Shown here: piece by piece, positions 5,473-31,702 of the stretch
How positions within the stretch are numbered: position 1 is the stretch's first letter
Layout of the letters: every line of letters starts with the position of its first letter
Origin: Burkholderiales bacterium
GTDB taxonomy: Bacteria > Pseudomonadota > Gammaproteobacteria > Burkholderiales > JAEUOS01
DNA length: 35,828 nt
Direction of reading: 5' to 3'
Assembly: GCA_947473125.1 (NCBI GenBank)
Contig: CANJDH010000045.1
Coordinates: forward strand, 1-35,828
Translations under genes and position numbers: made by a program
The notes under the pieces: generated by a model
Database searches by the model: none
What the model saw: the letters and a program-made list of their open reading frames with translations, nothing else
What the model was told of the DNA's origin: nothing

Positions 5473-6732
5473 ATGACCTCTTCCGCATTCGCTCCCAGCA
5501 AAAAAATTAGCTCGTTCCACCCCCCGCAGCGCACGCTGCTCGGCCCCGGCCCATCCGAGATCAATCCGCGCGTGCTGGCCGCTTCGTCACTGCCGGCGAT
5601 CGGCTATCTCGACCCGATATTTGTCGACATGATGGACGAGTTGAAGCAATTGCTGCGCTACGCCTTCCAAACCAACAACCAGCTCACGTTCCCGCTGTCG
5701 GGCCCGGGTTCGGTCGGCATGGAATCGTGCTTTGTGAACATGGTCAGCCCGGGTGACAAGGTGATCGTGATGCGTAACGGCGTATTCGGCGGCCGCATGA
5801 TCGAAAACGTGCAGCGCGTCGGCGGCGTGGCTGTCGTGGTGGAAGACACATGGGGCGAGCCCTGCGACCCGCAAAAACTCGAGGAGGCCCTCAAGAAGAA
5901 CCCTGACACCAAGATCGTCGCGTTCATCCATGCCGAAACCTCGACCGGCGCGCAGTCCGACGCCAAGACGCTCACGGCGATTGCCCACAAGTATGGCGCC
6001 CTCGCCATCGTAGACGCCGTGACCTCGCTCGCCGGCACGCCGATCAAGGTCGACGAATGGGGCATTGATGCAATTTATTCGGGCTCGCAAAAATGCCTAT
6101 CGTGCGTCCCGGGTCTGTCGCCGGTGTCGTACAACGACGCGGTGATCGAACGCGTCAAGCTGCGCAAGGACACAAACCGCGTGCAAAGCTGGTTCATGGA
6201 CTTGAACCTAGTGCTCGGGTATTGGGGTGAAACCACCCGCACCTACCATCACACTGCGCCCATCAACAGCCTGTTCGCCCTGCACGAAGCGCTGCTGTTG
6301 CTCAAGGAAGAAGGCCTGGAAAATTCCTGGGCGCGCCACATGCGCCATCACCTGGCGTTCAAGGCCGGGATGGAAGCCATGGGTCTCGAATTCCTCGTTA
6401 AGGAAGCGTATCGCCTGCCACAAATGAACGCGATCAAGATTCCCGAAAGCCTGCAAAAGAGCGAAGCCGAAGTACGCAAGCGCCTGCTCAACGAATTCAA
6501 CATGGAGATCGGCGCAGGCCTGGGCCCGCTCGCCGGCAAGATCTGGCGCTTCGGCCTGATGGGCTACTCGTCCAAGCCGGAGAACGTCATGCTCTGCCTG
6601 TCGGCCCTGGGCTCGGTGTTGATGGACCTCGGCCACCCGGTCAAGGTCGGCGAGGCCGAGGCGGCAGCCCACTCGGCCTACGCCTCGATGCACGCTTCGG
6701 CCGCGCAAGCCAAGTTGCGCGCCGCGGCGTAA
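5473..6732 (+). CDS. Class V aminotransferase (alanine/serine--glyoxylate type)
   Basis: A 419-residue PLP-dependent aminotransferase of fold type I. The N-terminus has LLGPGPSEINPRVL, the entry signature of alanine--glyoxylate, serine--glyoxylate and ureidoglycine--glyoxylate aminotransferases. The cofactor lysine is K207 in YSGSQKCLS. The aspartate that contacts the PLP pyridine nitrogen lies in AIVDAVTSLAG, and the middle motif THHTAP is present as TYHHTAP. Likely reaction: transfer of an amino group to glyoxylate (giving glycine) from alanine, serine or a related donor; sequence alone does not separate these. It stands as a single gene with its own AT-rich leader and no purine or serine-cycle genes beside it, so context does not help to choose the donor. 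Confidence 0.85.
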   Translation: MTSSAFAPSKKISSFHPPQRTLLGPGPSEINPRVLAASSLPAIGYLDPIFVDMMDELKQLLRYAFQTNNQLTFPLSGPGSVGMESCFVNMVSPGDKVIVMRNGVFGGRMIENVQRVGGVAVVVEDTWGEPCDPQKLEEALKKNPDTKIVAFIHAETSTGAQSDAKTLTAIAHKYGALAIVDAVTSLAGTPIKVDEWGIDAIYSGSQKCLSCVPGLSPVSYNDAVIERVKLRKDTNRVQSWFMDLNLVLGYWGETTRTYHHTAPINSLFALHEALLLLKEEGLENSWARHMRHHLAFKAGMEAMGLEFLVKEAYRLPQMNAIKIPESLQKSEAEVRKRLLNEFNMEIGAGLGPLAGKIWRFGLMGYSSKPENVMLCLSALGSVLMDLGHPVKVGEAEAAAHSAYASMHASAAQAKLRAAA

Positions 6733-6812
6733 TGGTGGCGGGGCGGAGCCTGGAGCGCACACCGATACCGTCGATGTGCATGAAAGCGCTGCCCGGAACC
6801 GAATAAGCGCAC

Positions 6813-7763
6813 ATGGCGAACAGCGGGGACAGCACCCAGGAACCGCCAGCGCGCGACGTGCCCGACTGGGGCGATTCACCTCGCGCCGTACTGTTCGCAG
6901 ACATTGCCGGCAGCACCAAGCTTTACGAAGCGCTCGGCGACGCCGTTGCCAAACGCCTGATCGACGAATCGCTGGCGGCGCTGGCGATCCTCACGCGCCG
7001 CCATGGCGGCCGCGTCATCAAGACCATCGGTGACGAAATCATGTGCGTGTTCCAGGGAGCTGAACGCGGGTTTCATGCGGCCTCGGACATGCAGCAAAAA
7101 ATCGATTCGATGCCGATCGTCAGCGGCACCAAACGACGCATCCGCATCGGCTTCCATGCGGGCCCGGTGATCGAGGAAGGCGGCGATGTGTTCGGCGACA
7201 CCGTGAACATTGCGGCGCGCATGGCGGGCCTGGCGCGCGGCATGCAGATCATGACCTCGCGCAGCACCGTCGATGCCTTGCCACTGGCGCTGCGCGGACG
7301 CACCCGCACCATCGCTGCGGTATCGGTCAAGGGCAAGGCCGACGACATGTCGGTATGCGAAGTACTGTGGCAGGATGAGGACGATCTGACCATGACGGTG
7401 GCCGCCTTGTCGGTCAGCTCGATCAACGCCGAACTGTCACACCAACTGGTGTTGCGCCACGGCGCGGATGAAATCACGCTCGACATCGGGCGCACCGGTG
7501 TCGGCATGGGGCGCGACCCGGGCAGCGACCTGGTCATCACCGACCCGAAAGCGTCGCGCCACCATGCGCACATCGAAAAGCGCCGCGACAAGTTTTTTCT
7601 CGCAGACCAAAGCACCAACGGCACGTTCGTCACGTTCAATGGGGAGCGCGAGGTGGCACTGCGGCGTGAAGAGATCATGTTGCGCGGATCGGGCCAGATC
7701 CGGTTCGGCCACAGCACCACGGAAGGCTCGGGCGAAACCGTCGATTTCTCGGTCCGCGGCTAA
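6813..7763 (+). CDS. Class III adenylate/guanylate cyclase with C-terminal FHA domain
   Basis: A 316-residue cytoplasmic protein with no membrane segment. Residues about 22-185 form a class III nucleotide cyclase domain: metal-binding aspartates D30 (LFADIAGST) and D74 (KTIGDEIM), and transition-state residues N132 and R136 in VNIAARM, so it looks catalytically competent. It should make cAMP or cGMP; K70 before TIGDE and the VKGK segment do not settle which. Residues about 222-312 form a forkhead-associated domain (GMGRDPGSD, then SRHHAHI and STNGTF), which in this family binds phosphothreonine peptides and would tie activity or location to a phosphorylated partner. The next gene starts only 14 bases downstream, so the two are very likely one transcriptional unit. 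No Ser/Thr kinase gene is visible in the window. Confidence 0.9.
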   Translation: MANSGDSTQEPPARDVPDWGDSPRAVLFADIAGSTKLYEALGDAVAKRLIDESLAALAILTRRHGGRVIKTIGDEIMCVFQGAERGFHAASDMQQKIDSMPIVSGTKRRIRIGFHAGPVIEEGGDVFGDTVNIAARMAGLARGMQIMTSRSTVDALPLALRGRTRTIAAVSVKGKADDMSVCEVLWQDEDDLTMTVAALSVSSINAELSHQLVLRHGADEITLDIGRTGVGMGRDPGSDLVITDPKASRHHAHIEKRRDKFFLADQSTNGTFVTFNGEREVALRREEIMLRGSGQIRFGHSTTEGSGETVDFSVRG

Positions 7764-7777
7764 GGGTTACGCGCTCC

Positions 7778-10700
7778 ATGCCCGCGCCGCCGCCCGCATC
7801 GACCCAGACCCTTTCTCGCGAGGATCTTTCGGTCGAGCTCAAACGGCAGACCATCGAGTTTGCGGAGCGGGCGCTGATCAAGCGCACCGAATCGATCCAG
7901 CTGCAAAAAGCCTACGCCGACGAGCTCAAGGTGGCCATCATGGCCGAATTGCAGACGCGGCGGTCGCGTGACCTCGCACTCGAGCGCGTAGAAAAGACTC
8001 GTGCCGAGCAGGCCGCTGCGGAAGAGGCAGTGAAAGCGGCCGATGCGCAACTGGCGCAGATGCGCGCGCGGCTCGCCGAGACCGAACTGCGCATCAAGAC
8101 CGCCGGCTCGGCCCCGATGGTCGGCACGGGCGGCACGCCCCCGGCAGCCGCGGGCAACCTCGACCGGCAGATCCAGGCAGCCGAGTTGCGTCGCAGCACC
8201 GCCGAAAATGCGGAACTCGCTGCGCGCTTGCGCCAACTTGAAACGCACAGCGCCCAATTGGCGAGCGAACGGGACCAACTAGCTGCAGCGGTACGGTCGG
8301 TCGAGCAGGAACGCGATGCCGCGCGTGCCGCGCAGGTTACAGCGGCCAAGGCAACCGCCAACGCGCCGCCAGCCGTCCCCGCTCTCTCGCCTGCGACGCC
8401 GGGGGTGACGCAGATTCTGCGTGTACTGGCCGACAGCCATCGCCCCCAACCTGCGGATGCGGATACCGGGATAGCTCTCGCCTCCCGCCCGAAAGGGCCT
8501 GGGAGCGAATTGCAACTCACCGAAGCGGCCACCAGCGAGGAGCGCGCCAAGGTTGCGGCGGCGGCCAAAAAACTGGAGGAAGCAGTACGAGCGCGCCTTG
8601 CGACCGAGCAGCGCGTGCGCAGCGAAGAACAAAAGCAGGCCGCGGCGCAGGGCGACATCGACAAGGCCGCAAGCACCCAAAAACTGCTCGCCCAAGACCT
8701 GGAACGGGAAAAGGCGCGTCGTACCGAACTCGAACAGCAAATAGCGGCCGCGCGCGCCGCGCGCAGCGAGTTGGACCAACGCTTGATCGAGACCGCGGCG
8801 GAGCACAACCGCCTAAAGCTCGACTTGCAGGCGGCGCAGAGTGAAGCGGAGGCGGCAAAAATTGAGACCGCCCGCGCATTCGAGGATCTCAAACAGGCCA
8901 ATGCGCGGCTGCAGCAGATGCGCGGGGAGCTTGCCGCAGGCCAAAGCGCCGCCCAAGCGCAGCAACGCGAGCTTGCCGAAACCCTGGCCTTGGGCGCGGC
9001 CCGCACCGACGAACTGGCGCGGGAGCGCGCTGCAGTTGCAACCGCGCAGTCTACTCTGGCCGGCATCAGCAGCGAGCGCTCTCTTGCGGAGCGTGCGCTG
9101 CAAGAAACATCAGGGGAATTGGCCAAGGCGAAAGCGGCTGCGGAGACTGCGCGCAACGAGGCCGATCTGGTGGCACGGGGTGTGGCTGCGGTCGCGGCGG
9201 CCCTCGATGCGAGCGGCGCGGAGCTCACCGCACGGCAGTCACAAGCAGCAACCCTTAAGGCAGCGCTGGCGGACACGCTCGCCCAAGTCGCGGCGTTCGA
9301 GGCCGATCTGCGCACCGAGCGCGAAGCCTTGCTCTCCGCCACGACGGAACACGACACGGTCAAGGCGCGGCGCCTGGCAAGCGAGGCCAGCGCTGAAGCG
9401 GAGCGCGTCGCGCTCGACGATGCATCGCGCGCCATGTCCGCCTTGATTGCACGCAAGAACGAGCAGTCCTCGGTTCTCGAAGCCGGTGAACGTGCACGTA
9501 AAGAGATTGAACAGCGTGCCGCCGGCGTCGAGGCCACGCGCCGCCAGCGTGAAGCGCAGCTCGCGGCAGCCGCCGAGCAGAATGCCGCGTTGGCACGCGA
9601 CGTCAGCACGGCTCTGGCAGAACGTGATGCCGCGAACCGCCAGACCGAAACCCTGCGCAACGAGCGCCGCGAGTTCGAATTGCAGGCTTCGCAAGAACGC
9701 GCCGCTATGGCGCGCGAGCGCTCTACCAGCTCTGGCGAACGAGCGGAACGCCAACGTGCCGAAGCCGAATTTGCAGATCTGCGTCTCGAGGCGGCAAGCT
9801 TCGCCGGGCGGCTCGCCGCCGCGCGTGCGGCCCAAGCTGCGCAGCAAGACGAGGTCGAAGCTCTGGAACAACAGCAACGCCAGCACGCGGCCCATTCCCG
9901 GGGACAAGTCGAGGCGTTGCGCGTGGTACGGGCGGCGCGCATCGAGGCGGAGCAGGCGGCGGGTGCGGAACGACTCGCCCAGGCCCGGGCGCGAGCCGCG
10001 CATGCCGAAACACGCGCCGGCCTGCAGGCGATGCTCCAGGGGCGTGCCGCCGCGAACGAAGAATTGCACCAGGCGCAGACCCAGCGCGACGACCTGCGCG
10101 CCCAAGGCGTCAGCGCGCAGGAAGCGGCCGAGAAAGCGCTGGCATCATGGCAGGCAAGGCGTGACGAGGTCGCCAAGCTTGAGCGCAGCGCGAAACTGGA
10201 AGACGAGGCGCGCGCGCACCTCGACACCCTGATGGGAATGATGCTCGGCGAGCGCCGCGCCCTCGAAGCGGACTTCGCAGCCGCGCGCGTTGCCGAAGCG
10301 GTGCTGCGGGCTCAGCTGGCCGAAACCGGGGCCGGTGCGCGCCATGCTGCCGCGATGCATGCCGCCATTGAATTGCCCGACACCAGTGCACTCGATGCGC
10401 AACACGCGCAGGGCGCGGCCCGGTTGCAAGCCATTGAGGCGGCTATTGCTGCCCAGACTGTGCGCACCGAGGCCGCTGAGGCAAGCCTCGCATCCCTGCA
10501 GCAAGATGAAAGCAACCTCTCCGCCGAATACGATGCGCTTGAAACGCGTCTCGCCCAATCAGCGGCGACCCAGCATCAGGCCCGCGCTGCCCTTGAGGAA
10601 AAACGCCTGCGCGATGCAGAGCAGCTACGCGTGACCGAACAGCAGTCTGCGGCTGTCGAGTTGCGCCTCAGCGACGCCGCGGCGCAACTCGTCGCGCAAC

Positions 10701-11524
10701 AGAGTGCGCTCACGGCGGCGCTGGACGCGCTTACGCTCGCGGCCGGACAACGCCAGGTCGAAGAGGCGCGTGCACAAAATGAACGAATTGCCCTTGCGCG
10801 GGCCCACGCCGAGGCGGAAGCGGCACGCAGCGCGGCAGGGGCCGAGGCGTCCCTTTCCCTGGAAGCGCTACGTCGCCAGGGTGCAGAAGAGATCGAGACG
10901 CAACGTTATCTTGAACAGGAACTGGAACGTATTCAGACTCGAGCTGCTGCCACGCTCGATTCCCTTAATCGGGAACAGGCAGCCCATGTCGCAGCCGAGA
11001 AGCAACTCGCCGAGGCACAGGCGCGCAGGGAGTCGATGCAGGCGTCCTTGCTGCACCTGCAGGAAGAAAGCGGGCATGGCGAACGTGAAGCCCAACGCAC
11101 GGCCGGCGAAGTCGACAACGCGCGCGAACGGCTGCAGTTTGCCAATGACGATCTCACGCGCCTGCTCGACGACATTGCGCGCGCCGAATCCGACGCGGCG
11201 TCTGCGCGCATTACCCTCGACACGGTTGGCGCACGCGATGTCCCGGTCGCGGCCCATATCGTGCCAAAACGTCAAGGCGCGCGCTGGATGTGGCTGGGGG
11301 TACCCGTGGCGTTCAGCGCATTGGTCGCAGCGGTTTATCTGGTGCCGCGCTACTGGCCGACACAATCCGAGGACCAGTCACCTGGTGCCGTCGTTGCGCC
11401 CGCGGCGTCCGGCACCCGCCCGGGCGCGGGATCGCCGGAAGCTCCGCTGTTCCCCGCCGACCCGAATGCGACGCGCGACCTGAGTCTGAGCTACGAGCTC
11501 AAAGCGCTGCCAAAGCGCCCCTGA
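7778..11524 (+). CDS. Giant Ala/Glu/Arg/Gln-rich coiled-coil protein with C-terminal membrane anchor
   Basis: A 1248-residue protein of unknown function. Nearly the whole chain is low in Pro and Gly and rich in Ala, Glu, Arg, Gln and Leu with heptad-like spacing, as in long coiled-coil rods. The rod is broken by Pro/Gly-rich linkers near residues 109-125 and 195-250. From about residue 260 to 1150 it is almost continuous. A single hydrophobic segment (WLGVPVAFSALVAAVYLVP, about residues 1170-1190) follows a basic stretch (PKRQGAR), which predicts the rod in the cytoplasm and a tail of about 57 Pro-rich residues in the periplasm. There is no Walker A or B motif, so it is not an SMC or RecN ATPase. 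It follows the cyclase-FHA gene after 14 bases and has no strong ribosome-binding site, suggesting coupled expression. It could be a scaffold, tether or cell-pole organiser; none of these is demonstrated. Annotators may call it SMC-like by composition alone. Confidence 0.85.
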   Translation: MPAPPPASTQTLSREDLSVELKRQTIEFAERALIKRTESIQLQKAYADELKVAIMAELQTRRSRDLALERVEKTRAEQAAAEEAVKAADAQLAQMRARLAETELRIKTAGSAPMVGTGGTPPAAAGNLDRQIQAAELRRSTAENAELAARLRQLETHSAQLASERDQLAAAVRSVEQERDAARAAQVTAAKATANAPPAVPALSPATPGVTQILRVLADSHRPQPADADTGIALASRPKGPGSELQLTEAATSEERAKVAAAAKKLEEAVRARLATEQRVRSEEQKQAAAQGDIDKAASTQKLLAQDLEREKARRTELEQQIAAARAARSELDQRLIETAAEHNRLKLDLQAAQSEAEAAKIETARAFEDLKQANARLQQMRGELAAGQSAAQAQQRELAETLALGAARTDELARERAAVATAQSTLAGISSERSLAERALQETSGELAKAKAAAETARNEADLVARGVAAVAAALDASGAELTARQSQAATLKAALADTLAQVAAFEADLRTEREALLSATTEHDTVKARRLASEASAEAERVALDDASRAMSALIARKNEQSSVLEAGERARKEIEQRAAGVEATRRQREAQLAAAAEQNAALARDVSTALAERDAANRQTETLRNERREFELQASQERAAMARERSTSSGERAERQRAEAEFADLRLEAASFAGRLAAARAAQAAQQDEVEALEQQQRQHAAHSRGQVEALRVVRAARIEAEQAAGAERLAQARARAAHAETRAGLQAMLQGRAAANEELHQAQTQRDDLRAQGVSAQEAAEKALASWQARRDEVAKLERSAKLEDEARAHLDTLMGMMLGERRALEADFAAARVAEAVLRAQLAETGAGARHAAAMHAAIELPDTSALDAQHAQGAARLQAIEAAIAAQTVRTEAAEASLASLQQDESNLSAEYDALETRLAQSAATQHQARAALEEKRLRDAEQLRVTEQQSAAVELRLSDAAAQLVAQQSALTAALDALTLAAGQRQVEEARAQNERIALARAHAEAEAARSAAGAEASLSLEALRRQGAEEIETQRYLEQELERIQTRAAATLDSLNREQAAHVAAEKQLAEAQARRESMQASLLHLQEESGHGEREAQRTAGEVDNARERLQFANDDLTRLLDDIARAESDAASARITLDTVGARDVPVAAHIVPKRQGARWMWLGVPVAFSALVAAVYLVPRYWPTQSEDQSPGAVVAPAASGTRPGAGSPEAPLFPADPNATRDLSLSYELKALPKRP

Positions 11525-11530
11525 AACCCG

Positions 11531-11559
11531 CCGAGAACCGCTCCAGGAGCAGCTCTCGG
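11531..11559. terminator. Hairpin between convergent genes (possible bidirectional terminator)
   Basis: An interrupted hairpin sits in the 51-base gap between the convergent coiled-coil and oxidoreductase genes. The outer stem CCGAGA / TCTCGG encloses an inner stem GCTC / GAGC with a three-base loop. No T tract follows on either strand, so intrinsic termination is uncertain; the position between two convergent stop codons is the main support. Confidence 0.4.
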
Positions 11560-11575
11560 GTCGATGCCCTTGCAT

Positions 11576-14500
11576 TCAGGCGGCCTGCGCCGAGACCGGA
11601 TGCCCGTCACGATAGCGCGCCAGCAGCTTTTCCTGGTGCGCGCTGGCAGCGGCCAGGTGGCGCTCCTTGACATGCCCGTAGCCGCGGATTTCCTCGGGAA
11701 TTGATGCGATCGCTTCCGCCATATCGAGATTGTCTTTGGAAAGTGTCGACAGCAGGCCCGACACGGTATCGCGATACCGGTCGATCAAGGCACGCTCGGT
11801 GCGGCGCTCTGCGGTGTAGCCAAACACATCGAAGGCCGTGCCGCGCAGCCCCTTGAGCTTCGCGAGCACGCCGAACACCCGCATCATCCACTGCCCGTAC
11901 TGGCGCTTGACCAGTTCGCCCTTGTCGTTGCGTTTCGCCAGGAGCGGCGGGGCAAGGTAGAACTTCAACTGGTAATCCCCTTCGAACTGGGCGCGGATTT
12001 TTTCCATGAAGGCCGGGTCGCTATGGAGGCGCGCCACTTCGTATTCGTCCTTGTAGGCCATCAGCTTGTACAAATAGCGCGCCACGGATTCGGTCAGCCT
12101 GGATCCGCCCACTTTTGCGGCTTCGGCCTGACGCACCTGCTCGACAAACTCGCTGTAGCGGCGCGCGTACGCCGCATCCTGATAGGCGGTGAGCAACTCG
12201 ACGCGCTTGGCCACGAGTTCCTCCAGGTTGCGCGAGAAGCCGCCGGCGGCCTGGTTGCGCGGCGTGAGCGTCACCACCTGCGCCGGCGTCGCGATGCGCT
12301 CGACGGCGCCGCCATCAACCACGGCGTAGCGGCCCCAGCCGAATGCCTTCTTGTTGAAATCGACCGACACGCCATTCAACTCGACGGCGCGCATCAATGC
12401 CGCTTCGCCGACCGGCACCAGCCCCTGCTGGAACGCGTAACCGAGCAGGAACATGTTGGTGGCAATCGCATCACCCATGAGTGCCGTGGCAAGACGGTTT
12501 GCGGCGACCAGGGTCAGCGCGTCCTTGCCCGCCGCCTGCGCCAACGCCTGTTCGAGGGCATCGGCCGGCAATGTCCAATTCGGATCCTTCACAAACGCCG
12601 ACGTCGGGGCCAGCGTGCTGTTGACCAGAATACGGGTGCGCCCTTCACCGACGCGGGAAAGCACGTCTTTGCCGGCCGTCACCACCAGATCCGCCCCCAC
12701 CACCAGGTCGGCGGCTGCGGTGCCGACACGCGTGGCATGCAGGTCCTCGCTGCGCGCGGCAATCTGCACATGGCTGGTCACCTGGCCGCCTTTCTGGGCC
12801 AGACCCGACATGTCGAGCACCTGCGCGCTCTTGCCTTCAAGATGCGCCGCCACCGCGACAATCTGCCCGATGGTGATCACGCCGGTGCCGCCGATGCCGG
12901 TGACCAGGATATTGAACGGCTGGGTGATCGCCGGAATCGTCGGTGCCGGGAAGTCGGGGAAAGCGGTGGCGTCCGCGCCGGCCTTGGCGTTGGCGGTCGG
13001 CGTCGCCTTGCCGGGCTTCCTGAGGGCGCCCCCTTCAACGGTCACGAAGCTCGGGCAAAAGCCGTTGACGCACGAATAGTCCTTGTTGCACGCCGACTGG
13101 TTGATCTTGCGCTTGCGGCCCAGCTCGGTCTCGAGCGGTTCGACCGAAATGCAGTTCGATTTCACCGAACAGTCGCCACAGCCTTCGCATACCGCGTCAT
13201 TGACGAAAGCGCGTTTGGCCGGGTCCGGAAACTGGCCGATCTTGCGGCGCCGGCGTTTTTCGGAAGCACAGGTCTGGTCGTAGATGACCGCAGAGATGCC
13301 GGGCATTTCGCGCAACTGCTTTTGTACTGCGTCGAGCTGATCCCGATGATGCACCGTCACGCCGGGCGCCCATGCTGTGCCGCCTGCGTATTTCTCAGGT
13401 TCGTCGGTCACCACCATGATGGGCGTGACGCCTTCGGCATGGAGTTGCTGCGAGATCAACCACGGATTGAGCGGCCCATCATGCCGCTGGCCACCGGTCA
13501 TGGCCACTGCATCGTTGAACAAGATCTTGTAGGTGGCATTGACCCGCGAGGCCACAGCCGCACGAATCGCCAGCAGGCCGGAATGAAAGTAGGTGCCGTC
13601 GCCGAGATTGACGAACACATGTTTCTCGTCTGTGAAGTGCGCCGCGCCGGCCCAGGTGACGCCTTCTGCACCCATGTGCGTGAAGGTCGAGGTTTCGCGG
13701 TCCATCCATTGCGCCATGTAGTGGCAACCGATGCCTGCCAGCGCGCGCGAGCCTTCGGGCACCCGGGTCGAGGTGTTGTGCGGGCAACCCGAACAGAAGT
13801 AGGGCGTGCGCACCGCCATCGGCGCGGCCTTCGCGAGCGCGCCTTCCTTGGCGTCAAGAAACGCAATGCGTGCATCGAGCCTTGCCTGGAGATCCGCTCC
13901 CACCAACGGTTTTAGCCGTGACACCAGGGCGCGTGCAATGATCGAGGGGGTCAGCTCGCCGTGCAGGGGCAGCAGCGGCTGGCCGGCATCGGCAAATTTT
14001 CCGGTCACGCGCGGCGCCTGGCCGGTGCCGAACAGGATTTCCTTGGTTTGCGCTTCGATCAGGGAGCGCTTCTCTTCGACCACGAAGATTTCATCGAGTC
14101 CTTGCGCAAACTCGCGCACGCCGGTTTCTTCGAGGGGCCACGTCACGCCAATCTTGTAGAGGCGAATGCCGAGGCCGGCCGCCATTTTCTGGTCGATGCC
14201 CAGGTCGGCCAGCGCCTGGCGCAGATCCGCATAAGCCTTGCCGGCCGAGGCCAGCCCGAGCTTCGGCTTGACGCCCGCAGCCTCGCGCCACAACACCTGG
14301 TTAAGCCGGTTGGCGCGCACATAGGCCTTGACGGCCGGCAGCTTGTAGTTGAGCAGGCGCGCCTCTTCGCCGATGAAATCGATGTAATTGAACCGGATCG
14401 ACAACCCGCCGGGCGGCAATTCGAAGTCTTGCGGAATCACCGGCGCGACCCGGCCCGGCGCCAGCTCGACCGTGGCGCCGGATTCGACGATGTCGGTCAC

Positions 14501-24094: not shown

Positions 24095-25189
24095 TCAGGC
24101 ACTGGCGAGCACCCCGCGACGTATCTGGTCCAGCTCCATCGATTCAAACAGGGCCTTGAAATTGCCTTCACCGAAGCCCTGGTCGCCCTTGCGCTCGATG
24201 AACTCAAAAAAGATCGGCCCGAGCTGGTTTTCGCTGAAGATCTGCAACAAGAGGGCGCCGGCCTTGCCGTCCACCAGTACCTTGCGCTTCCGCAACTCCG
24301 CAAGGGGTTCGCCATGGCCGGGAATGCGCTTGTCGACCAGTTCGTAATAGGTATCGACGGTGTCAAGCAGCTTGATGCCGCTGGCGCGCATCGCGTCGAC
24401 CGTGTTGTAGATGTTCGATGAGCCAAGCGCGACGTGCTGGATGCCTTCACCATGGTAGGCGGTCAGGTATTCCTGGATCTGGCCCTGCTTGTCGTTGCCT
24501 TCTTCGTTGATCGGAATCCGGATCATGCCGCAGGGGCTGGTCATGGCTTTCGATTTGACGCCGGTGACCTGGCCTTCGATGTCGAAATAGCGCACTTCGC
24601 GAAAGTTGAACAGGCGCTCGTAGAAGCCGCTCCACTCGTCCATGCGGCCACGATATACGTTGTGCGTCAGGTGGTCGATATAGGTCAGGCCGTTGCCCTT
24701 TGGGTTGAGGCTGGCACCGGCCAAGGGTTCGAAATCGACATCGAAGAAGCCGATGTTGCCGATGTCGCCTTCCTGCGCCCCGTTTTTTCCGCGCCAGCGA
24801 TCGATCAGATAAATCACAGAATCGCCGATGCCCTTGATCGCCGGGATATTGAGCTCACCCGGTCCGCTTTGGCCGTCCAGCCCCCAGGCGCCCAGGTCCA
24901 GCGCGCGGCGGTAGGCCCGGGCAGCGTCCTGGACACGGAACGCGATGGCGCAGATCGATGGCCCGTGCAGGCGCGCAAAGCGCTGCGCGAATGAATCGGG
25001 CTCGGCATTGATGATGAAATTGATCTCGCCTTGCCGATACAGGGTGACCTGTTTGTGACGATGGCGCGCGATCGGCTTGAAGCCCATGCGCTCGAAAAGC
25101 TGGCCCATCGCCACCGGATCGGGCGCGGCGTATTCGATGAATTCAAATCCTGCCGTGCCCATCGGGTTGTCCCACAGGTCGTTCGTCAT
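24095..25189 (-). CDS. hppD: 4-hydroxyphenylpyruvate dioxygenase
   Basis: Converts 4-hydroxyphenylpyruvate to homogentisate in tyrosine catabolism, using Fe(II) and O2. 364 residues, the normal length for bacterial HPPD. The iron ligands of the second vicinal-oxygen-chelate domain are all present: H173 (IDHLTHNV), H252 (IQHVALGS) and E329 (PIFFEFIERKGDQGFG). The C-terminal helix region (GEGNFKALFESMELDQIRRG) is typical. The ATG at 25189 follows GAGGA at nine bases. It is divergent from an Lrp/AsnC gene and convergent with cobA. Homogentisate dioxygenase and fumarylacetoacetase are not in the window. Confidence 0.96.
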   Translation of the reverse strand: MTNDLWDNPMGTAGFEFIEYAAPDPVAMGQLFERMGFKPIARHRHKQVTLYRQGEINFIINAEPDSFAQRFARLHGPSICAIAFRVQDAARAYRRALDLGAWGLDGQSGPGELNIPAIKGIGDSVIYLIDRWRGKNGAQEGDIGNIGFFDVDFEPLAGASLNPKGNGLTYIDHLTHNVYRGRMDEWSGFYERLFNFREVRYFDIEGQVTGVKSKAMTSPCGMIRIPINEEGNDKQGQIQEYLTAYHGEGIQHVALGSSNIYNTVDAMRASGIKLLDTVDTYYELVDKRIPGHGEPLAELRKRKVLVDGKAGALLLQIFSENQLGPIFFEFIERKGDQGFGEGNFKALFESMELDQIRRGVLASA

Positions 25190-25810: not shown

Positions 25811-26899
25811 TCAGCGGCCTTGGGGCGGCAATGCGCTGCTTTCGTAGTAGTTGTTCATGGCGCGCGAAAACGACTCATACACCGGCGGCACCTTGAAGTC
25901 GTTCTGGCGCAAGCGCTCGGCGCGCATATACGAGATGAACTGCTGGGTCGACTGCACCGGAATCGAGTTTGGCGATACCTTCCGATCCAGAATCTGGATC
26001 GTCATTTCCGCCGCAACGCGACCCTGCTCGAACGGCGAGGTGGCGAGTGCCATCATGCCGCCGTCCTCGACATAAAACCCATTGGTGCCGATTATCGGAA
26101 TCTTGGGGGTATTGTCTTCGGTCCATTTGACCAGCTCGTCCGGCGCAACCATCTTCTTGTCGTCGGCTTCCGAGGCCTGGATGCGCCGGTAGTTGGTGGT
26201 AAGCAGCACATCGGCCTCCAGGTTGGCGCGCTTGACCTCGGCCTTCCATTCGTCGAAGGTCTTGACCAGCTTGGAACGGTGCAAGATGAACGGCTTCCAG
26301 TCAAATTCATTGAGGAACCGGGTATCTTCCTTGACCGAACCCGACGTGTCGCCCACGTAGGCAATCCGCACCGGCCGGTCCGCCGGCACGCGCGGGCGCA
26401 CGGTTTCTTCAATCAGATTCTTGACGCCGAGCCACTGCTTGCGCTCGAGAATCCCGGTGACGTTGCGGGCCTTGTCATAGCCGTAAGGCGCGATCTCGCC
26501 GTTGATGCCGGCAAACACGATCTTGATTTTCGGGTGGTTGGCATACAGCTTGACGGCATAGCGCTGCGCGTCGTCATCGACCGCGATGATCAGGTCCGGA
26601 TCCCAATCCTCGATGATGCGCCGCGCCAGCACGCCGGCGCGCTGCTTGAACGCCTCATCCGGATTGCGCTTGGTATCCATGTAGTGCCAACGCAGCGTGT
26701 AGGGCTTTCCCAAAAGGGTGCGGTTCAATCCGACGTTGATGTCGCGCACCCAGATGTATTCGGTGTCGTAGCTGTGCAGCACCAGCACGCGCGGCTTGGC
26801 GGTGTTGACGACGATAAACGCGGCCATCGCACCGATGATGAACAGCGCCATCAGGATGCGAACCAGCATGGTCCTGCCGGAGCCGGGCGCTTTGGTCAC
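25811..26899 (-). CDS. Membrane-anchored ABC-type solute-binding protein
   Basis: A 362-residue protein with an uncleaved-looking N-terminal transmembrane segment (about residues 12-32, MLVRILMALFIIGAMAAFIV) and a periplasmic type I binding-protein fold of the ABC_sub_bind kind (PRVLVLHSYDTEYIWVRDIN, then DPDLIIAVDDDAQRYA, KIKIVFAGINGEI, IPIIGTNGFYVEDGG). Such domains bind amino acids or small organic anions and also occur as sensor heads of signalling proteins. There is no lipobox and no ABC permease or ATPase nearby. The GTG start at 26899 overlaps the stop of the upstream permease gene by four bases (GTGA), so the two are translationally coupled and presumably work together. The ligand is unknown. 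Confidence 0.82.
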   Translation of the reverse strand: MTKAPGSGRTMLVRILMALFIIGAMAAFIVVNTAKPRVLVLHSYDTEYIWVRDINVGLNRTLLGKPYTLRWHYMDTKRNPDEAFKQRAGVLARRIIEDWDPDLIIAVDDDAQRYAVKLYANHPKIKIVFAGINGEIAPYGYDKARNVTGILERKQWLGVKNLIEETVRPRVPADRPVRIAYVGDTSGSVKEDTRFLNEFDWKPFILHRSKLVKTFDEWKAEVKRANLEADVLLTTNYRRIQASEADDKKMVAPDELVKWTEDNTPKIPIIGTNGFYVEDGGMMALATSPFEQGRVAAEMTIQILDRKVSPNSIPVQSTQQFISYMRAERLRQNDFKVPPVYESFSRAMNNYYESSALPPQGR

Positions 26900-28794
26900 A
26901 GTAAACCCATTGATTTCCAGAACGGGATCGACGCGTAGATGCCCGCCAGGCGGAACAGCGTCGAGACCGTGTTGAACAGCAAAAAACTACCCTGATCGTA
27001 AATCTGCTTGCGTTTGGTCAGGCTTTCAAACTGCACGAAATACGAGCACTGGTAGGGGAAAAACCAGTGTTCGCACATCACCAGGATGACGAATCCGACC
27101 AGCCACGGATTGACGCCGTTCAAATCGGCCAGCGGCATCAGGATCGCCGCCGAGACCGATACGGCCGCGTTGATCGGTGCCACCAGGCGGATCGCAAACA
27201 GGACGCCCGTCAGCACCAGCACAAACAACGGGAAATTGCTGCGCATCAGGTCGCCGAGCCAACCCAGATGCTGCGCCAGGAACTTCGACAAGCCCAGCTG
27301 GTTCATCGCCGCCACCATGCCGATCAGGCCGGCCAGGTACATCAGGAACGCCCAGTCGATCTTGTCGCGAAACTCGCTGCCGCGCAGAAAATTGAATGCC
27401 AGCAGGAAAAACAGCAGGATCAGCGCCATCCAGGGCGGCTGGATCTTGTGCAGCGAGACCGTCATCACCCCGAGCGCGAAAATCAGAACGCCGAACACGC
27501 TGGCCCACTCGCGGGCCCGCATCGGGCCGAGCAGGTCAAGCTGGGCCAGGACGATTTCCTTCGACAGTGCCGGCTTTTCGTCGGTACGGAAAAACAGCGG
27601 CGAGGTCACCATGTACAGCACCAGCATCACCACGCCGCACACCAGACCGCCAACCAGCCAGTGAAACCATGAAAACTCTTCCTGGATGTGCACCGGCAAC
27701 AGGCCATACACGACAAAGTTCACCGACTTGCTGGTAAGGAAGGTGGCCGACATCACGCCGACGCCGGTGAACGCCGACTGCGCCAGTCGGGTCGCCGCCT
27801 TGCCGCCGAACTTGAGCTTGAGCGCCTCGACCATGTCGATCAGCAGCGGCGTCACCAGCGCAACGCGGCCGTTGATCGATGGCACTACCGGCGACAGGAT
27901 CAGGCCGGTGGCCATGATGCCGAAATTGTTCCAGAACGGCGAGTTCGGCAGGCTTCTTAGCACCATCAGCATGGCACGGTACGACAGGCCCGAGGCGGTG
28001 ATCACGGCGGACAAGCCGAGGATCGACATGGCCATGAAGAAGCCGTCCGAGGCAAACCCCGACAACACCACCGATTGCGGCACCAGGTCAAACACCAGCG
28101 TCGCCACCAGCGCAAAAATGCCGGGGATGAAATCAGCCACGAGGCGAAATACCCACATCACCACGGTAGCTGTGAAGATGCCGAGATAGAGGCGTGCGGA
28201 CAGATCGAGTTGCCCTGCAGTGAGATAAAACACCAGCGGCGGCAGCACCAGCGCGCACAGCCAGCCGATGATCTCGCGCGCATCGGCGCCCTTCTCGGCC
28301 TGCGCCGGTTTGGCCGCTTCCGCATGCAGCTTCTCGCGCGAGAAGCGGTTCATGATCGAGACAAAATACTGCGCCTTGATCGCCGGGTTGGCCTCGAGCA
28401 ACTCGTTGAAATGCTCGCGCGGAATCGCTACCAGCAGGGCGTCAGACTCGGCCACGGCATCGGCCATGTAGATTTCGCTGCCGAGAATCGCCTCTTCGCC
28501 GATGTAGCCTTTTTGCACTGCATCGATCACCGCATTCGACGGCGGCTTGTCGACGGCATTGGCGCCGCCGCCCACCAGGCGCATCGTGCCCTCGGCAACG
28601 AAATACAGCATCCCGGCGGCTTCCCCGGCGCGATACAACACGCCTCCCTGGACGATGCGCCGCTGCGTGACATGCGGCAACAGCCGCGACAGCGACTCAT
28701 AGCTTGCGCGCGAGACGATCGGCTCATTTTTCATGAGCGCGATGGTGTTCTCGGTATCGGGCGAAAACTGGCTGTCGTTGACTACCGCGGACAT
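26896..28794 (-). CDS. DASS/SLC13-type anion permease with N-terminal cyclic-nucleotide-binding-like domain
   Basis: A 632-residue fusion. Residues about 25-155 form a cNMP-binding-like beta-roll (LLPHVTQRRIVQGGVLYRAG, LYFVAEGTMRLVGGG, KGYIGEEAILG, then VAIPREHFNELLEANP). Residues about 175-630 form a many-spanning membrane domain resembling divalent anion:Na+ symporters (for example VSATFLTSKSVNF-like VGVMSATFLTSKSVNF, LRGSEFRDKIDWAFLMYLAG, and INAAVSVSAAILMPLADLNG). Family members carry dicarboxylates, citrate or sulfate; the substrate here is not readable. In the phosphate-binding cassette the GE is kept, but the usual Arg (PRAAT) is replaced in YMADA, so ordinary cAMP binding is doubtful. 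A TTG one codon upstream (28797) is possible; the ATG at 28794 is preferred. The coupled downstream gene encodes a periplasmic binding protein, which DASS transporters normally lack. Confidence 0.85.
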   Translation of the reverse strand: MSAVVNDSQFSPDTENTIALMKNEPIVSRASYESLSRLLPHVTQRRIVQGGVLYRAGEAAGMLYFVAEGTMRLVGGGANAVDKPPSNAVIDAVQKGYIGEEAILGSEIYMADAVAESDALLVAIPREHFNELLEANPAIKAQYFVSIMNRFSREKLHAEAAKPAQAEKGADAREIIGWLCALVLPPLVFYLTAGQLDLSARLYLGIFTATVVMWVFRLVADFIPGIFALVATLVFDLVPQSVVLSGFASDGFFMAMSILGLSAVITASGLSYRAMLMVLRSLPNSPFWNNFGIMATGLILSPVVPSINGRVALVTPLLIDMVEALKLKFGGKAATRLAQSAFTGVGVMSATFLTSKSVNFVVYGLLPVHIQEEFSWFHWLVGGLVCGVVMLVLYMVTSPLFFRTDEKPALSKEIVLAQLDLLGPMRAREWASVFGVLIFALGVMTVSLHKIQPPWMALILLFFLLAFNFLRGSEFRDKIDWAFLMYLAGLIGMVAAMNQLGLSKFLAQHLGWLGDLMRSNFPLFVLVLTGVLFAIRLVAPINAAVSVSAAILMPLADLNGVNPWLVGFVILVMCEHWFFPYQCSYFVQFESLTKRKQIYDQGSFLLFNTVSTLFRLAGIYASIPFWKSMGLL

Positions 28795-28848
28795 CAAATA
28801 ATCAAGGGCTTAACACGTAATTCTTAATGTTACCTGAAAGCATCGCGC

Positions 28849-28881: not shown

Positions 28882-29082
28882 TCAGGGTAGCGCTTGCGGC
28901 GTATACCCGGCTGTCCGAATCGCTTGCTCGAGCGCGTCTCTGGCGCTAGCCGAGTCGATTTGCACGCGATGGGCCGCAATGTCGATGTCGACCCGGGCGC
29001 CCTCATCGAGCGCCTTGACGGCCTTGGTAATGGTGGCGGCGCAGTGGCCACAGGTCATGTCGTTGACTTGAAACTGGATCAT
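28882..29082 (-). CDS. copZ: CopZ-like copper chaperone (HMA domain protein)
   Basis: A 66-residue ferredoxin-like heavy-metal-associated domain protein with the Cu(I)-binding motif MTCGHC near residue 9 and the family C-terminus IRTAGYTPQALP. It should carry Cu(I) in the cytoplasm and hand it to the CopA ATPase and to CueR. The ATG at 29082 is preceded by GGGAG at a good distance; an in-frame ATG at 29100 is less likely. It is divergent from copA and has its own CueR-type promoter. Confidence 0.92.
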   Translation of the reverse strand: MIQFQVNDMTCGHCAATITKAVKALDEGARVDIDIAAHRVQIDSASARDALEQAIRTAGYTPQALP

Positions 29083-29118
29083 GAAAGGCTCCCGAAGCAT
29101 GGTTGAAAAGGAAAAACC

Positions 29119-29272: not shown

Positions 29273-31702
29273 ATGAGCAACACCCTGACCCTGTCGATCG
29301 AAGGCATGACCTGCGCCTCCTGTGTGGCGCGCGTCGAGAAGGCCATTGCCAAAGTACCCGGTGTCGGGCAGGTGGCGGTCAACCTGGCCACCGAGGCGGC
29401 GACCATTACGTCCGAGGGCGCACCCCCGACGGCAGCTATCGCCAAGGCCATCGTCGACGCAGGCTACGCTGTAGGCCACGCGGACATCACGCTCGACATT
29501 CACGGCATGACTTGCGCATCGTGCGTCAGCCGGGTGGAAAAGGCCCTCAAGGCGGTGCCCGGCGTGACCGGTGCTGAAGTGAACCTCGCCACTGAGCGTG
29601 CCACCGTGCACCTGCTCAAGTCGGCCGCCGGCAGCGCGGCGCTGGTGGCTGCGGTGGCGCGCGCCGGCTACGAGGCGGCAGTGCATGCGCAGGATCAGGC
29701 CGTGACTGCGAGCCAGGAACAGCGCGACCTGTGGCGCGACCGCATGCCGGTGATTGCGGGTGTGCTGCTCTCGGCGCCGCTGGCGCTACCGATGTTTGGC
29801 GACCTGCTCGGCAAACACTGGATGCTGCCTGCATGGATGCAGTTCGTTCTTGCGACCCCGGTGCAGTTCTGGCTCGGCGCGCGCTTTTACCGTGCCGGCT
29901 GGGGCGCACTCAAGGCCGGCACCGGCAACATGGACTTGCTGGTCGCGCTCGGCACGTCCGCCGCCTATGGCCTGTCGATATATATGTGGCTCGACGGTTT
30001 GAGAAATGCGCCCGAAGCCATGGTGCACCTCTACTTCGAAGGGTCGGCTGTGGTGATCACGCTGGTACTGCTCGGCAAGTATCTGGAGGTGCGCGCCAAA
30101 CGCCAGACCACCGGGGCGATTCGCGCCTTGCAAGCACTGAAGGCGCCGACCGCGCGCGTGCTGCGCGATGGCAACGAATCCGAAGTGCCACTGGACGCCG
30201 TGCTCGTCGGCGATCTGGTCGTGGTGCGCCCGGGCGAGCGCATTCCGGTGGATGGCGATATTGCGGTGGGGGCCACCCATGCCGATGAGTCGCTGATCAC
30301 CGGAGAAAGCCTGCCGGTCGCAAAAAACGTCGGTAGCCGCGTCACTGGCGGCGCGGTCAACGGAGAAGGATTGATCCAGGTGCGCACCACCGCCATTGGC
30401 GCCGAGACGGCGCTAGCGCGCATCATCCGTCTGGTCGAATCGGCGCAGGCCAAGAAGGCGCCGATCCAGCGCCTGGTTGATCAGGTCAGCGCCGTGTTCG
30501 TTCCCGTCGTCATGACGATTGCGGCCGTCACCCTGCTCGCCTGGGGTTTGTCTGATGGCAATTGGGAGCGTGCGGTGATCAACGCCGTGTCGGTGCTGGT
30601 GATCGCCTGCCCGTGCGCCCTCGGGCTCGCCACGCCCACCGCCATCATGGCGGGCACCGGCGTCGCTGCGAAATATGGCATCCTGATCAAGGACGCAGAA
30701 GCGCTCGAAGTGGCGCACGCGATCAACGTGGTGGCCTTCGACAAGACCGGCACGCTCACCGAAGGCCACCCGACCATCACGGCCCTTCAGGCTGCTGACG
30801 GTGATGAAACAACACTTCTCAAATTGGCCGCCAGCCTGCAGGCGGGCAGTGAACATCCGCTGGCACGTGCCGTGGCTGCCGCAGCTCTCGCACGCGACAT
30901 CACGCTCCTTGCCGCGACCGCTTTCAAGGCGCTGCCGGGGCGGGGTGTGGAAGCAAACGTCGAAGGGCGCAGCCTCAAACTGGGCAGCGCGCGCATGCTT
31001 GAAGAAGCCGGCCTGGACCAAGGCGACTTGCGGGGCCGTGCCGCCGAACTCGCAGCGCAAGGCAACACCGTCTCCTGGCTGATTGAATCCGCGCCGGATC
31101 ACGTGCTTGGCCTGCTGGCCTTCGGCGACACCCTCAAACCCACTGCAGCCCGCGCCATCTCGCGTCTGCACGCCCAAGGCATTCACACGGTACTGCTCTC
31201 CGGTGACAACCGGGGCGCAGCCCAGGCCGCCGCCGACAAGCTCGGCATCGAATCGGTGCGCGCCGAAGTGCTGCCCGGCGACAAGGCCGACGTGGTTGCC
31301 GAACTCAAGCTGCCTCAAGGTGCGTCCGCTGAAAACGCCGCACCGCCAAAGGGTGCGATGCGGGTCGCGATGGTAGGCGACGGCATCAACGACGCCCCCG
31401 CACTCGCCGCCGCCGATGTCGGCATCGCCATGGGCACCGGCACCGACGCGGCGATGCACGCGGCCGGCATCACGCTGATGCGCGGCGACCCGGCGCTGGT
31501 GGCTGACGCCATCGCGATCTCGCGGCGCACCTACTCCAAGATCCGCCAGAACCTGTTCTGGGCCTTCATTTACAACCTGATCGGCGTGCCCTTGGCCGCA
31601 TTTGGCTTGTTGAACCCGGTGATTGCCGGCGCAGCCATGGCTTTCTCCAGCGTCAGCGTGGTAAGCAACGCGTTGCTGCTCAAGCGCTGGAAACCGGAAT
31701 GA
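29273..31702 (+). CDS. copA: Copper-translocating P1B-type ATPase
   Basis: Pumps Cu(I) from cytoplasm to periplasm at the cost of ATP. 809 residues, full length. Two N-terminal HMA domains each carry GMTCASC (first near residue 13, second about 70 residues later). Eight-helix core with the transport motif C446-P447-C448 (VIACPCALG), TGES in the actuator domain, phosphorylated D490 in [18 protein letters not shown] in the nucleotide domain and [20 protein letters not shown] in the hinge. All motifs of subgroup P1B-1 (Cu+/Ag+) are present. It is driven by the CueR-type promoter just upstream and is followed after 43 bases by cueR on the same strand, so the regulator may be co-expressed with its target. 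Confidence 0.96.

Follow-up and report, generated by a model that had tools for sequence, protein, structure and literature searches.

Whether a carrier of the DASS family can be served by a solute-binding protein (SBP) is the question raised by two adjoining genes on the minus strand of a 35,828-nucleotide stretch of DNA from a Burkholderiales bacterium (GenBank assembly GCA_947473125.1, contig CANJDH010000045.1; hereafter the window), the first encoding a DASS-type permease and the second an SBP. DASS/SLC13 carriers are, to our knowledge, not known to need or use an SBP, and an earlier note on this DNA, which proposed a new binding-protein-dependent secondary transporter under cytoplasmic control, had set them apart on this ground from the TRAP and TTT systems. 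The list of SBP users given there has become longer: only TRAP and TT secondary carriers were known to use soluble SBPs before 2025 (PMC12344293, Discussion), when TAXI-GltS of Bordetella pertussis was described in Commun Biol as an SBP-dependent carrier outside TRAP and TTT (PMC12344293). A literature search that left out most subscription papers and all preprints returned no paper on a DASS-SBP pair, on a DASS protein with a cyclic nucleotide monophosphate (cNMP)-binding domain, or on both Pfam families together. On the evidence assembled here, we consider it probable that both genes constitute one machine, in which a dedicated, membrane-tethered SBP feeds an elevator carrier of the DASS type that probably works in exchange mode.

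The permease gene (26896-28797, minus strand) encodes 633 residues from a TTG at 28797, with an ATG at 28794, the coordinate at which the earlier note ended the pair (open reading frame (ORF) list, Pfam and AlphaFold2 (AF2) model), and the SBP gene (25811-26899, minus strand; ORF list, Pfam), of the family PF04392, encodes 362 residues from a GTG. This GTG overlaps the permease stop by four bases (GTGA), as the earlier note had read it; an in-frame ATG at residue 11 of the SBP (26869) is an alternative start, and would give a 26-nt gap instead of the overlap. The note had also described the permease as a DASS protein with an N-terminal cNMP-binding-like (CNB) domain, and its partner as a binding protein with an N-terminal helix. 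Pfam matches to PF00027 and PF00939 in the former, and a PF04392 match together with a helix predicted at residues 7-33 in the latter, confirm this observation; the interpretation built on it is partly supported.

The unit recurs across distant bacteria. A protein search returned 21 loci (loci and genomes are referred to below by L and G numbers) in Beta-, Gamma- and Alphaproteobacteria, Spirochaetes and Desulfobulbaceae, and the DASS gene lies directly upstream of the SBP gene in 18 of them. Among 398 genomes, an even draw of the window's phylum (Pseudomonadota, going by the near relative L002; at most four candidates scored per genome for DASS and five for SBP), the DASS subfamily was found in 16 (E ≤1e-40; weakest 1.4e-146), identical to the 16 genomes counted as holding the unit-type SBP, and both genes adjoin in 16/16; in one of them (G077) a contig end truncates the DASS gene, the last part of which precedes the SBP gene on the same contig. 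The SBP profile itself matches 43/398 genomes at E ≤1e-15, and the line for the unit subfamily was set after seeing the scores: 15 genomes have a best match of at least 197 bits, G189 was counted through a contig-end fragment (160.9 bits), and the 27 other genomes with matches (at most 141.4 bits) were counted as having other PF04392 proteins; a second, unrelated match, in G385, reached 160.8 bits. Within the window's order, the SBP was found in 5 of 349 genomes and a DASS gene adjoins it in all five. The Spirochaetota (phylum of L006; at most eight candidates per genome) hold the DASS gene in 7/198 genomes, two of them seeds, with the SBP adjacent in six, and in the Desulfobacterota (phylum of L013; at most five candidates) 8/297 genomes match DASS, that is, the seed plus seven distant proteins (150-270 bits) in whose fetched stretches no SBP was found. 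The names given to these phyla and to the window's order were inferred from related named loci.

Further diverged DASS copies, found in five genomes of a reduced alphaproteobacterial group, are each accompanied by their own SBP (5/5, one of them, L075, with broken frames in both genes). Between the DASS stop codon and the point where the SBP profile match begins, the distance is -4 to +26 nt in 42/42 loci, with both genes always on the same strand, and the window's genome contains a single PF00939 match at E 0.001 and a single SBP-profile match at E 1e-15. Comparative genomics therefore strongly supports a pairing that is not due to chance; an SBP occurring mostly apart from the permease, which the earlier note had named as the outcome speaking against its proposal, is not the pattern seen in these counts. 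An ORF of 992 residues in L009 was considered as a DASS-SBP fusion and rejected as an open-frame artefact, its DASS part being in frame 2 and its SBP part in frame 1. A plasmid search returned only four records, at most 29% identical, and no LSGGQ motif was seen in the short flanks of 14 distant stand-alone PF04392 loci (L039-L052).

The history of the two genes is consistent with this pairing. In a tree of 47 DASS domains, from which L013, L021, L056, L075, L079 and L080 (broken or partial) were omitted and in which L070 and L002 represent one genome, the 39 SBP-linked domains form one clade (support 100/99) and the eight without an SBP fall outside. This clade fits a single recruitment of the SBP, with outgroups that all come from one phylum and include one locus (L086) with fewer than 500 bases downstream of its DASS gene. 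The SBP tree (omitting L022, L069 and L075) and the DASS tree share 32 of 34 splits over 37 loci, and their path distances correlate with r 0.83, a value reached in 0/2000 permutations. In the DASS tree as well as in the SBP tree, a locus from Desulfobulbaceae (L012) branches among the spirochaetes, which suggests that the two genes were transferred jointly.

The SBP matches PF04392 (ABC_sub_bind) at 3.7e-9, with 36.7 bits against a gathering threshold of 25.9, and scores 28.8 bits against the cut-off of 390 for the TrpX family NF041285. Its AF2 model (mean pLDDT 91) consists of one N-terminal helix, predicted to be a membrane anchor (26801..26881, minus strand; residues 7-33; AF2 and hydropathy scan), and a two-lobed, putatively periplasmic binding domain (25859..26800, minus strand; residues 34-347; AF2 and fold comparison). 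A hydropathy scan with a 19-residue window gave values above our chosen cut-off of 1.6 for 35/40 SBP N-termini and of 1.30-1.58 for the other five, and a lipobox-like match occurs in two of the 40 (L012, L013) and not in the window's SBP. When the SBP sequence by itself was searched against the PDB, only chance matches resulted; the SBP profile reached 3lkv at 7e-4. By fold, the model is closest to CD0873 (6hnj; Z 26.0 over 282 residues, root-mean-square deviation 2.7), which heads the top matches together with SP1069 and VC_1101 (Z 26.0 to 23.3), proteins that bind Tyr, Trp and Phe (PMC6816091). The unit SBP thus shares fold and Pfam family with characterized PF04392 proteins (TrpX, CD0873, VC_1101), and differs from them in that a membrane helix replaces the lipoprotein signal in 38/40 members, the partner is a secondary carrier, and a ligand-site Tyr is not kept. 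This residue, named in the ligand site of VC_1101 (Tyr262) and CD0873 (Tyr279) (PMC6816091), aligns with a Pro kept in 40/43 unit SBPs in a weak alignment mapped by ourselves, so an aromatic amino acid would not be a safe guess for the ligand. A kept ligand is argued for by the conservation of the cleft: out of 40 invariant SBP positions in a 16-row alignment (A1), 29 fall within the 100/316 positions at cleft-facing strand ends, a number reached by 126 of 20000 random circular shifts, in a test made rough by the existence of only 316 distinct shifts and by strand-end windows of our choosing (over 43 SBPs, 21 columns are at least 95% identical).

As for the permease, PF00939 (Na_sulph_symp) is matched at residues 186-569 (7.3e-29), and likewise in 29/31 family members; the DASS membrane domain occupies 26899..28281 (minus strand; residues 173-633; Pfam, AF2 and fold comparison). 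The AF2 model (mean pLDDT 80) has a DASS fold, with Z-scores of 37.8 for NaS1 (8y5w), 36.2 for DiT2.1 (9mcu) and 31.9 for VcINDY (6okz), and lower ones for the TRAP membrane subunits SiaQM (7qha, 24.0), LaINDY (23.5) and DiT1 (22.1). The closest solved relatives by sequence profile are plastid carriers and LaINDY (8e-18 to 1e-14), with VcINDY at 1e-10, and the score of 92 bits against the cut-off of 198.6 for TIGR00785 ("dass") places the permease, by profile, in a divergent DASS branch.

Two residues bear on the coupling mode. Arg159 and His392 of LaINDY fill the Na1 and Na2 sites and have been proposed to be permanent Na+ surrogates in exchangers (PMC7553777). According to an HMMER alignment, from which residue numbers were worked out by hand, they align in the window's permease with Arg311 at the HPin tip (PSINGR; 27865..27867, minus strand) and Arg537 in HPout (RLVAPIN; 27187..27189, minus strand), respectively. 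Arg311 is kept in 31/31 alignment rows and in 39/39 SBP-linked permeases; Arg537 is kept in 29/29 rows with a letter at this position and in 36/39 SBP-linked permeases. The DASS-C type, defined by the lack of basic side chains at Na1 and Na2, is therefore not what is found here (Arg in 39/39 at HPin and 36/39 at HPout), and of the Arg (Na1) and His (Na2) that mark the DASS-E type, the former is present and the latter is replaced by Arg, as aligned to LaINDY by sequence. Since both positions are basic, Na+-independent exchange is likely; the permease keeps the family to which the earlier note had assigned it, and within that family resembles, by sequence, the exchangers rather than the Na+ symporters. 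With the DASS exchangers (LaINDY and the plastid carriers DiT1 and DiT2.1) it shares the fold and the basic character of both Na+ positions. It departs from them in the Arg, instead of His, at the Na2 position, and in its association with an SBP and a cNMP-like domain, neither of which is reported for these carriers in the portions of the literature available to us.

We envisage that a solute from the periplasm is bound in the cleft of the anchored SBP and passed on, through physical contact, to the outward-facing DASS carrier. At the sites taken by Na+ in DASS symporters this carrier has fixed positive charges, and for this reason it would probably exchange substrate against another anion going out, rather than operate as a Na+ symporter. 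By analogy, such a unit would most likely work like TRAP or TAXI-GltS, as an elevator carrier fed by an SBP; it is not a member of either, because its carrier and its SBP belong to other families. TRAP systems (DctPQM, SiaPQM, TAXI) also pair an elevator carrier of the same overall fold (Z 24.0 for 7qha) with an SBP, and the DASS and TRAP membrane subunits share the elevator fold (PMC9971032). Here, in contrast, the SBP is of PF04392 and not of the DctP or TAXI families, the membrane part falls by profile in the DASS branch (a DctM profile matches 9/31 family members at E ≤0.001 and the window's permease not at all at E up to 1), the two genes directly adjoin, without a gene between them, and the Na+ positions are basic. 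Neither permease nor SBP gave a Pfam or NCBIfam match to TctA, TctB or TctC at E up to 1, so that assignment to TTT does not hold either. TAXI-GltS resembles the present case in the recruitment of an SBP by an elevator-type secondary carrier, proposed there from gene linkage and translational coupling (PMC12344293); its SBP belongs to the TAXI family and its carrier is GltS, a Na+ symporter, both different from the families found here, and natural fusions are reported for it (PMC12344293).

A DASS carrier that travels with its own tethered SBP across distant bacteria suggests a further, independent way to build an SBP-dependent secondary transporter. The authors of the TAXI-GltS study ask whether it is the elevator mechanism that permits coupling to an SBP, which further classes would allow to be examined (PMC12344293, Discussion); a DASS elevator fed by an SBP of its own would provide one, in a family that has many elevator structures and in which SBP-less relatives (L081-L087) offer a natural control. 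Mechanistically, the use of an SBP by an exchanger would be unusual as well, because the TRAP systems described in the sources available run on Na+ or, for one TAXI system, on protons.

Several observations weigh against a joint machine. Unit-type SBPs without an adjacent DASS gene occur in two reduced genomes (L017, L018), and a broken SBP gene with no DASS gene near it in L022; a complete unit is present at another locus (L073) of the L018 genome, and no DASS of the subfamily was found in the L017 and L022 genomes. Conversely, a spirochaete DASS gene with a broken frame (L079) has no SBP in its stretch. No natural DASS-SBP fusion was found among the loci, unlike what is reported for TAXI-GltS, and co-inheritance of neighbouring genes alone would also give congruent trees. 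With regard to the transport mode, the exchangers LaINDY (23.5) and DiT1 (22.1) score below the Na+ symporters NaS1 (37.8) and VcINDY (31.9) in the fold comparison, although, with the exchanger DiT2.1 at 36.2, the modelled fold would favour neither type. Gln occupies the position of Arg537 in 3/39 permeases (copies L072-L074), and all eight sampled relatives without an SBP are also basic (Arg or Lys) at both positions; the basic pair does not, therefore, explain the SBP, and seems to be older than it. Lastly, the unit SBPs make up one side of a branch with support 94/96, and their nearest sampled kin outside it include sensor domains fused to cyclases, so the SBP could itself be a sensor and not feed the carrier.

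This last point is the core of the best-surviving alternative, in which the SBP would be a sensor or regulator gating an exchanger, or the pair a transceptor, with no hand-over of substrate. The kin in question are fusions of an SBP, a transmembrane (TM) segment and a class III cyclase, found beside the unit itself in five spirochaete loci; the structural matches of the window's SBP, which is moreover held by a helix and not free, include the sensor SBP TorT, and DASS carriers, as far as we know, so far work without SBPs. No SBP is named for them in the accessible part of PMC7553777 either. The fold is, however, that of transport SBPs, with a conserved cleft, and a dedicated SBP inherited together with a permease is the usual pattern of a delivery system. 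Membrane-anchored SBPs of secondary TAXI transporters have also reportedly been described (by Roden et al. in 2023, going by the title). We hold this alternative to be unlikely and delivery of a solute by the SBP to be the better account.

It would be improbable, in turn, that the operon merely joins two independent genes, with a permease working alone and an SBP serving another carrier or adhesion. DASS proteins elsewhere are, as a matter of general knowledge, not known to need an SBP, and the SBPs of L017 and L018 persist without an adjacent DASS gene; nevertheless, such independence is hard to reconcile with the co-occurrence in 16/16 genomes, the own SBP of 5/5 diverged copies, a spacing below 30 nt in 42/42 loci and congruent trees, or with a window genome that offers no other SBP match (E 1e-15) and no other PF00939 match (E 0.001). 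A further alternative would see in the permease an ordinary Na+ symporter of the DASS family, and in the SBP a TrpX-like protein belonging to an aromatic amino acid pathway. It could be proposed from the gene for 4-hydroxyphenylpyruvate dioxygenase (HPPD) that follows the unit both in the window and in the L002 genome, and from the Tyr, Phe or Trp bound by the closest SBP structures; it is highly improbable given the basic residues at both Na+ positions, the Pro at the ligand-site Tyr position in 40/43 unit SBPs (weak alignment), and the restriction of HPPD to the window's genome and that of L002/L053/L070 (tblastn over all fetched loci, with limited flanks).

To the N-terminal domain of the permease, the earlier note had ascribed the cytoplasmic control of transport. 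The CNB-like domain (PF00027, cNMP_binding, 2.6e-11) spans residues 46-137 (28387..28662, minus strand; Pfam, alignment), with the cassette GEEAILGSEIY; its modelled fold matches the CNB domains of SthK, HCN and the M. loti channel with Z about 17, and PF00027 is found in 30/31 rows of an alignment (A4) that leaves out L011 and L014, which have no CNB domain, and L012, which is cut by a contig end. In CNB domains, the cassette Arg has its role within the phosphate-binding cassette. Tyr110 (28468-28470, minus strand) takes its position in the window, according to a cassette alignment of 40 family members, and the Arg is replaced in 40/40 (Tyr in 34, His in four, Cys in two); for this reason classical cAMP control of the permease appears doubtful, and classical cAMP gating, initially considered, was downgraded. 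The CNB fold called upon by the earlier note is thus present, and the control ascribed to it is weakened by the missing Arg and by three members without any CNB-like domain (L011, L014, L071); in L073, the cNMP part is encoded by an ORF of its own. The Arg is kept in the nearest outgroup, L081, a CNB-DASS protein (6087-8042, plus strand) on a long branch with no SBP in its stretch.

Genes for class III cyclases occur near some of the units. They lie within 1.2 kb in 12/46 loci, a survey in which SBPs lacking a DASS, second copies that have diverged, broken units and loci with short flanks are also counted, and whose home-made cyclase profile missed two PF00211 matches 4-5 kb from the unit (G157, G185). 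All six spirochaete loci holding both genes have a near cyclase (one of them, L080, with broken frames), and five spirochaete cyclases carry a PF04392-like sensor part, two of them confirmed by Pfam and three recognized by home-made profiles plus PF00211. These PF04392-like sensor-TM-cyclase genes stand downstream of the unit in L006 (6986-9067), L009 (7032-9077), L077 (4377-6383) and L078 (4524-6530), and the corresponding gene of L080 is interrupted. The near cyclase of six alphaproteobacterial-type loci, from about two lineages, is the only PF00211 match of its genome, and the two alphaproteobacterial cyclases scanned have a dCache sensor part and not PF04392. The remaining 34/46 loci, including the beta- and gammaproteobacterial ones, have no cyclase within 1.2 kb; the window's closest cyclase to the unit is 18 kb away.

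This linkage is suggestive, hinting at gating without showing it. A tentative extension, rather unlikely as it stands, would be a three-part circuit in which an SBP-dependent DASS exchanger has its CNB-like domain set by a nucleotide, the product of a class III cyclase dedicated to it. This cyclase would respond to the periplasmic ligand of the SBP or to a related one, which in spirochaetes it would sense with its own PF04392-like domain. The circuit is favoured by the cyclases within 1.2 kb in 12/46 loci, their presence in 6/6 spirochaete loci and the sole PF00211 match of six alphaproteobacterial-type genomes. It is disfavoured by L011 and L014, which keep the cyclase without a CNB domain, by the dCache sensor parts of the alphaproteobacterial cyclases and by the 34 loci without a cyclase that near. 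Such a circuit would entail a new class of SBP-dependent secondary carriers and a cassette that reads a nucleotide without the usual Arg. We know of no other SBP-dependent secondary carrier under the control of a second messenger in the cytoplasm. Apart from this, the cyclase of the window (6813-7763, plus strand), 18 kb from the unit and one of 12 PF00211 matches in its genome, is of class III and carries an FHA domain at its C-terminus. Adjoining the unit and the cyclase of L009, a protein of 1102 residues (9092-12400, plus strand), whose first part looks membrane-like and whose middle looks repeat-like on visual inspection, has at its C-terminus a CNB domain in which the cassette Arg is retained.

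Concerning the surroundings, no shared neighbourhood pointing to a substrate was found, and recurring neighbours beyond the two genes are limited to related loci. One side of the unit in the window is occupied by HPPD (24095-25189, minus strand), directly downstream, and an Lrp-type regulator (plus strand); HPPD in L002, the window's nearest relative (7156-8301, plus strand), is 87% identical to it over the match. On the other side, upstream of the permease and on the same strand, lies a CopZ-like ORF of 72 residues (28882-29100, minus strand), known by its MTCGHC motif only, adjoined by a copper P-type ATPase (29273-31702, plus strand). No ABC ATPase or permease is among these flanking genes (Lrp, HPPD, copper P-type ATPase and CopZ-like), the farther genes of the window not having been scanned for this. 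In a group of related loci (L007, L008, L015, L016, L017, L019, L020 and L021), a HAD-type hydrolase gene (called by Pfam for L015 only) lies on the opposite strand upstream of the unit position, and in L017 the DASS gene is missing from between this hydrolase and the SBP gene.

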